DNA from: a virus
Direction: 5' to 3' (one strand)
DNA: 25,762 bases
IMG/VR virus record: IMGVR_UViG_3300024180_000503
Location: 1-25,762 of that record
Both the position numbers and the translations under genes were made by a program. Below the pieces are notes generated by a model, which ran no database searches, was not told the DNA's origin, and saw only the letters and a program-made list of their open reading frames with translations. This document shows positions 9,981 through 24,014 of the stretch, piece by piece. Position 1 is the first letter of the stretch. Each line of letters begins with the position of its first letter.

Positions 9981-10271
9981 TAGCAAGTTGATTCTGTTGC
10001 CAGGTCCAACTTGCAAAAACCCCTACGTGCTTAAAACTAAGCCGCTAATGCCATTTCTGGCGAATAATTGTCATTTGCAATTATAAAGTTTGTTCGCGGT
10101 AACGGCGCTTACATCCCGGCAACTCCCTTTACCTATTAGCTACCCAGTCGAACCTATTTCAACCCCATCAAAAACACACTATGAACTACTAGTAACAATG
10201 TGTTTATGGTGGAGTTGTCCGGTACCGCCCCGGAGTCCTGAATCAGCGTTGAGTAAATTTCAACATTGCGT
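9981..10271 (-). ncRNA. ssrA: circularly permuted two-piece tmRNA
   Basis: Transcribed on the minus strand in permuted order. The acceptor piece (about 10271-10207) comes first. It has a T-like arm TCCGG/CCGGA, then CAACTCC, discriminator A and encoded CCA at 10209-10207. A 40-nt intervening segment follows (10206-10167), itself foldable by AAACACA/TGTGTTT. The coding piece starts at 10166 with GGGGTTG, which pairs with CAACTCC (7 bp, one G-U), followed by AGGTTCGACTGGG as in other tmRNA 5' ends. The tag frame starts at GCA 10078 and reads ANDNYSPEMALAA, stop TAG at 10039-10037. The piece ends with helix GCAAGTTG/CAACTTGC (10014-9983). Permuted tmRNAs are typical of alphaproteobacteria and some cyanobacteria. 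The tag rescues stalled ribosomes and marks products for ClpXP. Exact processed ends are estimates. Confidence 0.92.
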
Positions 10272-10273
10272 AT

Positions 10274-10306
10274 TATTTATGATAACACAAAATTAAGTTA
10301 TGTCAA
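10274..10306 (-). promoter_or_regulatory. overlapping sigma70 and late promoters of the tmRNA gene
   Basis: Minus strand: TTGACA (10306-10301), 16-bp spacer, TATCAT (10284-10279). The late box CATAAATA (10281-10274) overlaps the -10. Both would start within a few nucleotides of 10270, at the 5' end of the acceptor piece. The -35 overlaps the end of the iscU gene. Confidence 0.7.
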
Positions 10307-10703
10307 CCGGTTTTGCGTTTATTTGTTGTTTTTTTCCAGAATAATCTCTAACTGCGGCTTTAATGGCATCTTCTGCCAATACGCTACAGTGTATCTTAAC
10401 TGGTGGCAATGCAAGTTCTTCTACTATTGTTGTGTTTTTAATCTCTTGTGCTTGATCTAGTGTCATACCTTTAAGCATAGTTGTTACCATACTTGAACTA
10501 GCAATTGCACTTCCACAACCGTATGTTTTGAATTTTGCATCTTCAATAATGCCATCTTCTGTTACTTTAATTTGTAAACGCATTACATCACCACATGCAG
10601 GTGCGCCTACCATTCCAGTTCCGATATTATCTTCCTTGGGGTCGAACTTACCTACATTTCTTGGATTATTGTAATGGTCTAGCACTTTTTCGCTATATGC
10701 CAT
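10293..10703 (-). CDS. iscU: IscU-type iron-sulfur cluster scaffold
   Basis: The protein is 136 residues, close to bacterial IscU (128). All cluster ligands are present at the classical positions: C37 and D39 (APACGDV), C63 (YGCGSAIASSS), H105 and C106 (KIHCSVLAEDAI). IscU assembles [2Fe-2S]/[4Fe-4S] clusters from IscS-derived sulfur. The client-transfer LPPVK motif is intact (ALPPVKIHC), so interaction with host HscA is possible. No iscS or hscA is in the window, so it would rely on host partners. In this region the radical SAM enzyme is an obvious iron-sulfur client. The late box at 10726-10733 and AGGAAG lie before the ATG. Confidence 0.93.
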   Translation of the reverse strand: MAYSEKVLDHYNNPRNVGKFDPKEDNIGTGMVGAPACGDVMRLQIKVTEDGIIEDAKFKTYGCGSAIASSSMVTTMLKGMTLDQAQEIKNTTIVEELALPPVKIHCSVLAEDAIKAAVRDYSGKKQQINAKPVDIT

Positions 10704-18625: not shown

Positions 18626-19156
18626 TTATTGTATTTTACCAGATACACGATTGTTCTGTGATGATATTTGCTCGTATTCTACTTCTAATAGATAAGCAAA
18701 TGTATTTAGCAATTCCCTTGCAAGGTCTTGCCTCCCACGTTCTCTACCACGCAAAACAACTGTAACTGTTACTTTGTTATTTTTATCCAAAAATTTACGA
18801 GCTGCTTTAGCTTTGGTCTCTAAATCATGTGTATCTATGTTTAGTCCCATACGCACTTCTTTGGTCTCTACAACGCTTTCTCGTTGCTTCTTCTTTGCCA
18901 GTTTTTCTTTTTGCTTTAATGAATACAAATGCTTGTTTAGATCAATTATTTTACAAACTGGTGGATCTGCCTTTTCGGCTATCAACACTAAATCTAAATA
19001 CAGTGACTTTGCTTCATCTAAAGCATCTTTCAAAGACAGCACCTGGCTTTCACCGTCTGGAAAGTTTACTCTAACTTCTTTTGCTCTTATTCGATCATTT
19101 GCGATTACAAATGGGCCTTTTGTACGTTGTTTATATCCTTTGTTTCTATTCTGCAT
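18626..19156 (-). CDS. infC: translation initiation factor IF-3
   Basis: The protein is 176 residues (E. coli 180), with both domains. The N-domain is IANDRIRAKEVRV...DALDEAKSLYLDLVLIAEKADPPVCKIIDLNKHLYSLKQKEK. The linker KLAKKKQRESVVETKEVRM is Lys-rich. The C-domain is NIDTHDLETKAKAARKFLDKNNKVTVTVVLRGRER. IF-3 binds the 30S subunit and proofreads start codons. The start is ATG 19156 with AAAGGTG upstream; the longer frame to 19207 is internal to clpX. The start overlaps the clpX end by 11 nt. Host infC normally starts at AUU for autoregulation; this copy has ATG, so it escapes that control. Confidence 0.93.
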   Translation of the reverse strand: MQNRNKGYKQRTKGPFVIANDRIRAKEVRVNFPDGESQVLSLKDALDEAKSLYLDLVLIAEKADPPVCKIIDLNKHLYSLKQKEKLAKKKQRESVVETKEVRMGLNIDTHDLETKAKAARKFLDKNNKVTVTVVLRGRERGRQDLARELLNTFAYLLEVEYEQISSQNNRVSGKIQ

Positions 19157-20363
19157 TGTCACCTTTGATAAATTGTGGCTGTGCGTTTCTAGAAATAACT
19201 TGTTCATTTATAATAATTTTGCGTACTCCCTTTTCATATAATTCTGGCAATTGATATTGAGTTTCTAATAGTGCTTGATCTAATATTTTACGTAAACCTC
19301 TAGCACCTAATTCTTCATCAATGGCAGTTTTTGCAATTTGTTCCAATGCTGTTATTGTAAACTCTATTTGTATTTTGTCAAGTAGAAAAAGCTCTTTTAT
19401 TTGATCAATTATACTACCCACTGGTTCAGTTAGTATGCGTACAAGATCGTTCTTATTTAACGGTCTTAAGACGTTTACAGACGGTAATCTACCTACAAAT
19501 TCCGGTATAAGTCCATACTTCACTAAATCACGTGTTTGTAAGTGCTTTTCCCATTGTTCTACATCGGTGTCTAAACCGTCGTTAAATCCTATCTTTGCTT
19601 TGCCGAGCCGGTTAACCACAACATCTTGTAGGCCAACAAAGGCTCCACCTACTACAAATAGTATGTTACTGGTGTCTATATTCACCTTCTCCGGGTTATG
19701 TTGCGGTTTGTTCGGAACCGCTAGTATAGTACCTTCCATGAGCTTTAAAAGGCTCTGTTGTACGCCTTCTCCTGAAACGTCTCTACTCAGGCTAACATAG
19801 TCATTACGTTTTGCTTTTTTATCAATCTCGTCAACATATATAATACCATGCTCTGTGCGTTCTTGATTGTAATTTGCTGCTTGAAATAATTTGTGTATTA
19901 GAACTTCTGCATCGTCGCCTGCATATCCACTTTCAGTAATAACAGTTGCATCAGTAACTACCATTGGTACACCTAAAAAGTCTGCAAGTGTTTGTGCTAA
20001 CAATGTTTTACCAGTTCCTGTAGGACCGCATAATAGTACATTGCTTTTTTGTAATTTTGTTTTTGTAGTTGTTGATATTCTTTTATAGTGATTGTATATT
20101 GCTACACTCAAAGTCTTTTTTGCATAATCTTGACTAATTACGTGTTTGTCTAAATCGTTATGTATTTCTCTAGGAGTAGGAACTTCATATTTTTTACCAT
20201 AATTTTTATGTATAGCTTCTACTTTCTTTTCTTTAACAATGCCGTAGCAAAGTTCAACACAATCGCTACAAATGTGAGTATCATTTTCACCTGCTAGTAG
20301 CTTTTTTACTTGTGTTGCGTCTTTGTTACAAAAATTGCATATGGTAGGTTTGCTAGACTTCAT
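19146..20363 (-). CDS. clpX: ClpX AAA+ unfoldase
   Basis: The protein is 405 residues (E. coli 424). The zinc-binding N-domain has C9, C12, C32 and C35. Walker A is GPTGTGKT (113-120), Walker B IIYVDEID (174-181), IPEFVGRLP holds the arginine finger (Arg292), and LGARGLRK is sensor 2. The IGF loop that docks into ClpP is intact (258-260). Two substrate-handling loops differ from E. coli: pore-1 is GYAG (146-149) instead of GYVG, and the RKH loop is shorter and lacks Arg-Lys (PQHNPEK region, 220-226). It should therefore dock onto ClpP but may select substrates differently. The ATG overlaps the upstream gene by 11 nt. Confidence 0.95.
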   Translation of the reverse strand: MKSSKPTICNFCNKDATQVKKLLAGENDTHICSDCVELCYGIVKEKKVEAIHKNYGKKYEVPTPREIHNDLDKHVISQDYAKKTLSVAIYNHYKRISTTTKTKLQKSNVLLCGPTGTGKTLLAQTLADFLGVPMVVTDATVITESGYAGDDAEVLIHKLFQAANYNQERTEHGIIYVDEIDKKAKRNDYVSLSRDVSGEGVQQSLLKLMEGTILAVPNKPQHNPEKVNIDTSNILFVVGGAFVGLQDVVVNRLGKAKIGFNDGLDTDVEQWEKHLQTRDLVKYGLIPEFVGRLPSVNVLRPLNKNDLVRILTEPVGSIIDQIKELFLLDKIQIEFTITALEQIAKTAIDEELGARGLRKILDQALLETQYQLPELYEKGVRKIIINEQVISRNAQPQFIKGDNAE

Positions 20364-23426: not shown

Positions 23427-24014
23427 TTATGTTTTCCGAACAACAACTTTATCAGCTAGGCCAAAATCTACGGCTTCTTGTGCTGACATAAAATTATCAC
23501 GTTCCATAGCTGCACTAAGCTCTTCGTAAGTTTTACCTTTTGAGTTATGCTTCTCGTACATGCGTGTAAGATTTTCTTTCATCTTAATAATTTCTTTTAC
23601 TTGGATTTCCATGTCTGTTGCTTGTCCGCCTGCTCCACCGCTTGGTTGGTGAATCATTGTACGTGAATTTGGCAATACTAAACGTTTGCCTGGTTTTCCT
23701 GCCATAGCAAGGAAACTACCCATACTACATGCTTGTCCCATTACAATTGTACTTACTGGAGATTTAATAAACTGCATTGTATCATATATGCCTAATCCTG
23801 CGGTTACTACACCACCTGGACTATTAATATAAAAGTTAATATCTTCTGCACTATTTTGTGATTCTAAAAATAGCATCTGTGCAACTACTAAATTTGCACT
23901 ATGGTCATTAACTTCGCCGTTAAGCATTACAATACGATCTTTTAGCAAACGACTATAAATGTCATATGCACGTTCGCCTCTGCCTGTACTCTCAATTACT
24001 GTTGGTATTATCAT
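23427..24014 (-). CDS. clpP: ClpP serine protease subunit
   Basis: The protein is 195 residues, the length of a mature ClpP with almost no propeptide. The catalytic triad is visible: Ser97 in GQACSMGSF, His122 in [10 protein letters not shown], Asp173 in [27 protein letters not shown] and the [10 protein letters not shown] start of the axial region are typical. It should form tetradecamers with phage or host ClpP and partner with a ClpX whose IGF loop is intact. AGGAG lies 5 nt before the ATG. It is separated from clpX by four genes (kinase, SNase, coiled-coil protein, unknown). Confidence 0.95.

Follow-up and report, generated by a model that had tools for sequence, protein, structure and literature searches.

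A permuted tmRNA gene of the alphaproteobacterial type on a virus contig and protein genes nested in the spacers of related phage tmRNA genes

The 25,762-nt stretch of DNA analyzed here (the window; IMG/VR virus record IMGVR_UViG_3300024180_000503, positions 1 to 25,762) carries on its minus strand, at 10269-9982, a complete, phage-encoded permuted tmRNA gene of the alphaproteobacterial (alpha) type, as seen in its sequence, in covariance model matches, and in the ARAGORN output. Most long spacers separating the two pieces of such phage genes contain a small protein gene; these ORFs form 36 families and show coding selection. Within this class, the window gene is one with a short spacer; no ORF is nested in it, and it does not itself meet the nested-gene criterion. 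ClpX, ClpP, translation initiation factor IF-3, and Hsp20 are all encoded on the same contig.

Anatomy and relatives of the window tmRNA gene

The acceptor piece lies upstream and is followed by the spacer and then the coding piece. The acceptor piece, the tRNA-like 3' part with the T-arm (10207..10269, minus strand; ~63 nt by the RF04321 and RF01849 alignments), ends CTCCACCA, its 3' sequence being ...GGACTCCGGGGCGGTACCGGACAACTCCACCA and terminating in CCA. The intervening spacer (10167..10206, minus) is exactly 40 nt long and contains no ORF, and its ends pair as AAACACA/TGTGTTT, as supported by sequence, covariation, and the MFE fold. The coding piece of ~185 nt (9982..10166, minus; RF01849 match 10327-9982), comprising the 5' part, the tag frame, and the 3' end, opens GGGGTTGAAATAGGTTCGAC at 10166, and its GGGGTTG pairs with CAACTCC of the acceptor piece. 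The tag reading frame (10037..10078, minus; ARAGORN and Rfam alignments) runs from the resume codon GCA to a stop codon and encodes ANDNYSPEMALAA, with a hydrophobic-Ala-Ala degron end. An MFE fold of 10269-10037 yields the acceptor stem plus a further stem that joins the spacer ends.

The original prediction, which did not state the strand, had described the CCA-ending acceptor piece, the 40-nt spacer, the GGGGTTG/CAACTCC pairing, and the tag frame with its stop, and all of these held. Its identification of a phage-encoded two-piece, circularly permuted tmRNA also held, the type being alphaproteobacterial according to Rfam, ARAGORN, the relatives, and covariation. Neither of the two outcomes it had named as refuting occurred: the Rfam covariance models match far above chance level, RF01849 with 116.7 bits (cut-off 50; E = 1.5e-31) and RF04321 with 120.9 bits (cut-off 47; E = 1.8e-23), and pairing between the two pieces is supported by covariation in related phages (see below). 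ARAGORN called a permuted tmRNA with a tag identical to ANDNYSPEMALAA. The existence of two mature RNAs, alanylation, and SmpB-dependent tagging are inferred. What did not hold was the claim that the T-loop GGCGGTA is unusual; this sequence fits the alpha model consensus GGGGGCgGUACCC and is standard for alpha tmRNAs, and the supposed anomaly was rejected. The gene shares its order, acceptor/coding pairing, T-loop, and resume region with alphaproteobacterial permuted tmRNAs (RF01849, Caulobacter type), but it is phage-encoded and scores 117 bits with RF01849, compared with roughly 200 to 312 bits for most alphaproteobacterial genes listed.

A sigma-70-type promoter matching 11 of 12 consensus bases precedes the gene (10279..10306, minus), with TTGACA at 10306-10301, a 16-nt interval, TATCAT at 10284-10279, and the TG of an extended -10 element. 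Judged from sequence alone, transcription probably starts slightly upstream of the acceptor piece. Of 20 aligned phage tmRNA loci, almost every one has kept TTGACA. The -10 region downstream of it reads TATAAATA, a match to T4-like late promoters, in many aligned relatives, and TATCATAAATA in the window. Directly upstream of the tmRNA is a gene for a NifU/IscU-like Fe−S scaffold protein (10293..10703, minus; PF01592, 177 bits; phrog_8429), the end of which overlaps the tmRNA promoter.

A ClpX-based scan gave 59 related virus loci. When ClpX-bearing records were searched whole, an alpha tmRNA was found in 29 and ClpP in 40 of 50 related virus records, while SmpB was found in none of the 50 (the control search for SmpB succeeded in 10 of 14 genomes, and no record was rated complete). 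One relative, of 86 kb, has a ClpX 95% identical to that of the window, and the tag of its tmRNA is the one found here; like a 205-kb relative, it also encodes a large terminase. A DNA similarity search with the window tmRNA against sequenced phages returned no match.

Comparison of the tag with other tags revealed variation among related phages (ANDNYSPEMALAA, ANNNYAPAMALAA, AEDNFAIAA, ANNNDYSPAQVMLAA, and others), with a hydrophobic residue followed by Ala-Ala as the constant part; in the lineage of the window, the tag always terminates Ala/Met-[Leu/Ile/Met]-Ala-Ala. In 24 distinct phage acceptor/coding combinations, acceptor-stem pairs 5 to 7 are standard in 98.6% of cases vs. 72% ± 3.5% with shuffled partners, and at pair 5 G-C, C-G, T-A, and A-T all occur. 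Pair 3 is an invariant G-U (24/24). A G-U third acceptor pair is the alanine identity pair.

Two-piece phage tmRNAs have already been published, for Melnitz and others, with 53 among the phage genomes of a 2021 collection (PMC9004378). The window tmRNA is not new in kind but an additional member of this published group. Like it, the Melnitz/pelagimyophage tmRNA is alpha-type permuted, belongs to a large marine phage, and has an ALAA tag end and a spacer-end stem (PMC9004378). Melnitz differs in having a 142-nt spacer with an ORF and a glutamine riboswitch (RF01739), whereas the window has a 40-nt spacer with no ORF and no RF01739 match, and does not meet the criterion of a Melnitz-type riboswitch-controlled tmRNA; conversely, ClpX and ClpP are present on the window contig, unlike in the Melnitz/pelagimyophage system. 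The proposal that the RNA type is a host fingerprint held weakly at best, because an alpha-type permuted tmRNA is known from a phage of a gammaproteobacterial host (PMC9004378), namely, Melnitz, with host OM43.

Spacers of phage tmRNA genes and their nested ORFs

Spacer length is very variable in the alignment of relatives. A virus-contig scan with a coding-piece pattern independent of spacer length produced at least 116 parsed tmRNA loci, 29 of which have spacers of ≥100 nt (24 of 89 distinct spacers, about a quarter), and two further scans aimed at long spacers added loci. All 16 long-spacer virus loci scanned exceeded an Rfam permuted-tmRNA cut-off, as did both roseophage loci. Phage-class spacers reach 100 to 390 nt with genes. 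Bacterial spacers, in a set enriched for long tmRNA genes, span 10 to 232 nt, with 73 of the 76 parsed genes at 10 to 85 nt; the three longer ones contain no spacer-filling ORF. A tRNA suspected by eye in the 98-nt spacers of the roseophages DSS3_MAL1 and MD18 was rejected, since ARAGORN found none in either and Rfam none in DSS3_MAL1. Just upstream of the DSS3_MAL1 tmRNA, a GOLLD RNA (RF02032, 160 bits; L479:167-630) overlaps a tRNA-Arg gene.

In almost every phage gene, the two ends of the spacer pair into a stem. Across 187 distinct combinations of ends (uncorrected for relatedness), eight positions are 96% paired vs. 69% ± 0.8% with shuffled partners, and several pair types occur at each of the eight. 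The corresponding alphaproteobacterial stem is weaker (68% paired vs. 44% shuffled).

Occupancy by ORFs was assessed in 265 distinct acceptor-spacer combinations, related sequences being counted. An ATG-initiated ORF covers ≥65% of the spacer in 82% of the 150- to 199-nt spacers and in 82% of those of 200 to 319 nt, vs. 5.9% and 3.3%, respectively, of dinucleotide shuffles; no excess of ORFs is seen in spacers shorter than 100 nt. In 30 of the 36 ORF families, coverage of the spacer is 60% or more. In these 30 families, the ORFs mostly start 9 to 24 nt past the CCA, and they stop within the spacer in 14 families; in 7 the stop is a conserved TGA 1 nt short of the coding piece, and in 9 it falls inside that piece. 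A Shine-Dalgarno-like motif precedes 21 of 36 family representatives vs. 11% of background windows. For the 17 families with at least two different members, pN/pS is 0.07 to 0.57, and changes in well-sampled families are commonest at third codon positions. Sense frames were found in 22 of 36 families and antisense frames in 3. The shuffles, the antisense control, the codon-position bias, and pN/pS together reject a chance origin of the spacer ORFs. Assembly chimeras are an unlikely source, the ORFs being found in four Melnitz isolates and many metagenomes.

In several loci (L100, L113, L269, L299, L319, and others), the ORF has no stop in the spacer and ends in the tmRNA coding piece; processing would therefore yield a non-stop message. 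Two loci (L496 and L499) have a 388-nt spacer (~1359-1746) in which two ORFs, encoding 41 and 79 aa, overlap. Within the ClpX clade of the window, filled spacers occur in L077/L078 and L085, and in a more distant ClpX group in L054/L086 and L057-L060/L089. Family searches with the spacer proteins returned almost nothing, that is, one PGDYG match, and weak matches to DUF2061, DUF6585, and phrog_37232. The PGDYG match (PF14083), above the Pfam cut-off, is a 73-aa protein encoded in the spacer of L389, a recognized family inside a tmRNA spacer. One metagenome-assembled genome, Rhodobacteraceae Water_Bin34 (G054), has 8 alpha_tmRNA matches; phage contigs were probably binned into it, because its contig L231 carries a phage-type spacer ORF.

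The cultured phage Melnitz (MZ577097) provides an instance in an annotated genome. Its 142-nt spacer (L422:1786-1927) has a GGAG motif upstream of an ATG followed by MFKWLSKTRLVVITRDYFRERNRKADAKIPKYLSG..., and the nested ORF (MFKWLSKTRLVVITRDYF...) is unannotated, the record annotating SsrA only. This ORF is homologous to spacer ORFs of other phages (MRQWLLNLKFVVITKDYFAERQRKADAKIPKYLSG..., L252 and L349). Melnitz gene 85, just upstream of its tmRNA, is homologous to another spacer family. Among the best 80 matches of the gene 85 family, 21 lie in a tmRNA spacer, 23 just upstream of a tmRNA, and 2 downstream; the others have no tmRNA core within 700 nt (28) or lie at contig ends (6). Given these split locations, there seems to be traffic of genes between the spacer and the flanking DNA. 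The predicted structure of the family is a strand-strand-helix-strand fold modeled with confidence (pLDDT 91.9), and a structure search with it gave no significant match.

A 2025 tmRNA database paper reports a tRNA gene in one spacer and a repeat in another; the passages searched make no mention of protein genes, and we found no earlier report of protein genes in tmRNA spacers in the open-access literature searched. As far as that literature goes, protein genes nested in the excised spacer of permuted phage tmRNA genes are probably new. Probably new as well is the linked ClpX clade, in which most residues that normally read the tag are altered or missing.

The linked ClpX clade and ClpP

The window ClpX (19146..20363, minus) retains the zinc finger, Walker A/B motifs, and IGF loop, while GYVG is changed to GYAG, T199 is replaced by Ser, and the RKH loop is deleted. 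ClpP (23427..24014, minus; PF00574, 265 bits; 256 bits to a solved ClpP) is full length with the Ser-His-Asp triad positions retained. IF-3 (18626..19207, minus; PF05198 and PF00707) is encoded directly downstream of clpX.

In E. coli ClpX, the ssrA tag is contacted by Y153, V154, T199, V202, R228, and H230; KM rises ≥50-fold in R228A, greatly in H230A, and ~4-fold in T199S (PMC7652416). The E. coli reference used for residue numbering agrees with a solved ClpX at these motifs. The 32 distinct sequences of the window ClpX clade all carry Ala at V154, Ser at T199, and a replacement at H230, and 31 of them lack R228; Y153 and V202 are retained, as is the ClpP-docking IGF loop (32/32). Thus, 4 of the 6 tag-reading residues are altered or lost, and the six-residue ssrA-contact criterion is not met, while that of a catalytic Ser-His-Asp ClpP with an IGF-bearing ClpX is. 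Compared with E. coli and other bacterial ClpX, the zinc finger, Walker A/B motifs, pore-1 Tyr, pore-2 V202, and IGF loop are the same; the differences are V154A, T199S, and an RKH loop three residues shorter. GYVG and RKH or RKN are retained in a more distant ClpX group (4 distinct sequences; L053-L060) and in the ClpX proteins of phages Phosso, G, and Lak.

It is likely, although inferred from the sequence alone, that the window ClpX still works with ClpP but selects other substrates, and that host ClpXP is the reader of the phage tag. A lysine (PNK) lies beside the shortened loop in most ClpX proteins of the clade; conceivably, it substitutes for the lost RKH contacts, in which case the phage ClpX could still read the tag.

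The rhizobial jumbo phages offer a comparison. Atu_ph07, AP-J-162, and Phosso have clpX beside IF-3, as well as ClpP, and a tmRNA is present in AP-J-162 and apparently in Phosso. The clpX-IF3 gene order of Phosso and Atu_ph07 (L590 and L591) is that of the window (18626-20363, minus), and their ClpP proteins are 63 to 67% identical to the window ClpP; however, their ClpX has GYVG and RKN, which the window clade does not. The common gene order may reflect distant kinship or a conserved translation/proteostasis module. In Phosso (L482), a pattern match also points to a permuted tmRNA core that lacks annotation, with what looks like a spacer of 410 nt; ARAGORN does not call it.

Proposed working, alternatives, and implications

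The window gene most likely specifies a working phage tmRNA of the alpha permuted type that uses host factors, with the phage ClpXP separate from it; expression, aminoacylation, and tagging data are lacking, and the host is unidentified. Gene anatomy, pairing, tag conservation, the ClpX residues, and coding selection on the spacer ORFs were observed in the sequences; processing, rescue, the use of host factors, and timing are inferred. A short precursor would initiate at the sigma-70-type promoter and be held together by the acceptor stem and the extra spacer-end stem. Host tRNA-processing nucleases would excise the spacer, with RNase P cutting before GGGG and 3' processing occurring after CCA, to give a two-piece tmRNA lacking the 40 nt. 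Host SmpB, alanyl-tRNA synthetase, and EF-Tu would be its partners for entry into ribosomes stalled on broken mRNAs, many of which should arise during phage infection. Ribosomes would be released, ANDNYSPEMALAA appended, and the tag read by host proteases, the net effect being more ribosome recycling for the phage. With the tag-reading residues of ClpX altered and SmpB absent from all 50 related records, the phage tmRNA most likely depends on the host for both SmpB and proteases. The requirement for host SmpB rests on that absence in records of which none was rated complete; the window is a partial genome, and a phage SmpB could sit in an unseen part. Phage ClpXP would probably not read ANDNYSPEMALAA but act as a protease apart from this pathway, on substrates that it selects itself. 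In many relatives, the small protein gene of the spacer would presumably be expressed from the tmRNA precursor; the window spacer is empty.

The best-surviving alternative, a self-contained tag-and-destroy system in which the phage tmRNA tags, phage ClpXP degrades, and everything but SmpB is phage-supplied, is unlikely. In its favor, tmRNA, ClpX, and ClpP lie on one contig, a recurring linkage (29 and 40 of the 50 ClpX records for tmRNA and ClpP, respectively), the ClpP active-site positions are present, and ClpX retains its zinc finger, ATPase motifs, and IGF loop. Against it stand V154A and T199S in 32/32, the deletion of R228 in 31/32, and the loss of H230, with E. coli mutants at T199, R228, and H230 impaired (PMC7652416), whereas ClpX proteins of other phages (Phosso, phage G, and Lak) do retain GYVG and RKH/RKN; the lack of a phage SmpB in 50 related records, none rated complete, also counts against it. 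Even less probable is dominant interference, in which the phage tmRNA competes with host tmRNA, retags or spares proteins, and disables host quality control. A tag-less tmRNA-like RNA of mycobacteriophage DS6A does inhibit endogenous tmRNA in E. coli (PMC11915505), but here the tag frame is unbroken, and very divergent phages have conserved its degron end, which fits productive tagging. A passive host relic gained by recombination and now unused, for which the absence of tmRNA from several related records (many of them fragments) might speak, is all but excluded by the promoter, pairings, tag, and spacer stem maintained over long divergence with compensatory changes.

Beyond the preferred reading of a working, host-assisted tmRNA, a bolder one, which we consider likely, is that marine phages have composite permuted tmRNA genes, the stem-closed, excised spacer serving as an exchangeable slot for small-protein genes such that one early transcript would give both a rescue RNA and a small protein. 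It is tempting to speculate that the tmRNA could tag a non-stop or nearly non-stop message from its own spacer, in an ArfA-like feedback loop.

Phage tmRNAs are known yet unexplained. The window ClpX clade, with GYAG, T199S, a deleted RKH loop, and a kept IGF loop, is a natural candidate specificity variant for studying how ClpX substrate choice evolves after a change in the ssrA-reading loops. The spacer genes supply phage proteins for study whose setting can be guessed, namely translation rescue and probably early infection, and a system for asking whether tmRNA regulates a message cut from its own precursor. If spacers routinely encode proteins under purifying selection, annotations, including that of Melnitz, would have missed such proteins because they sit inside an RNA feature, and a non-coding RNA gene would double as a protein gene slot.
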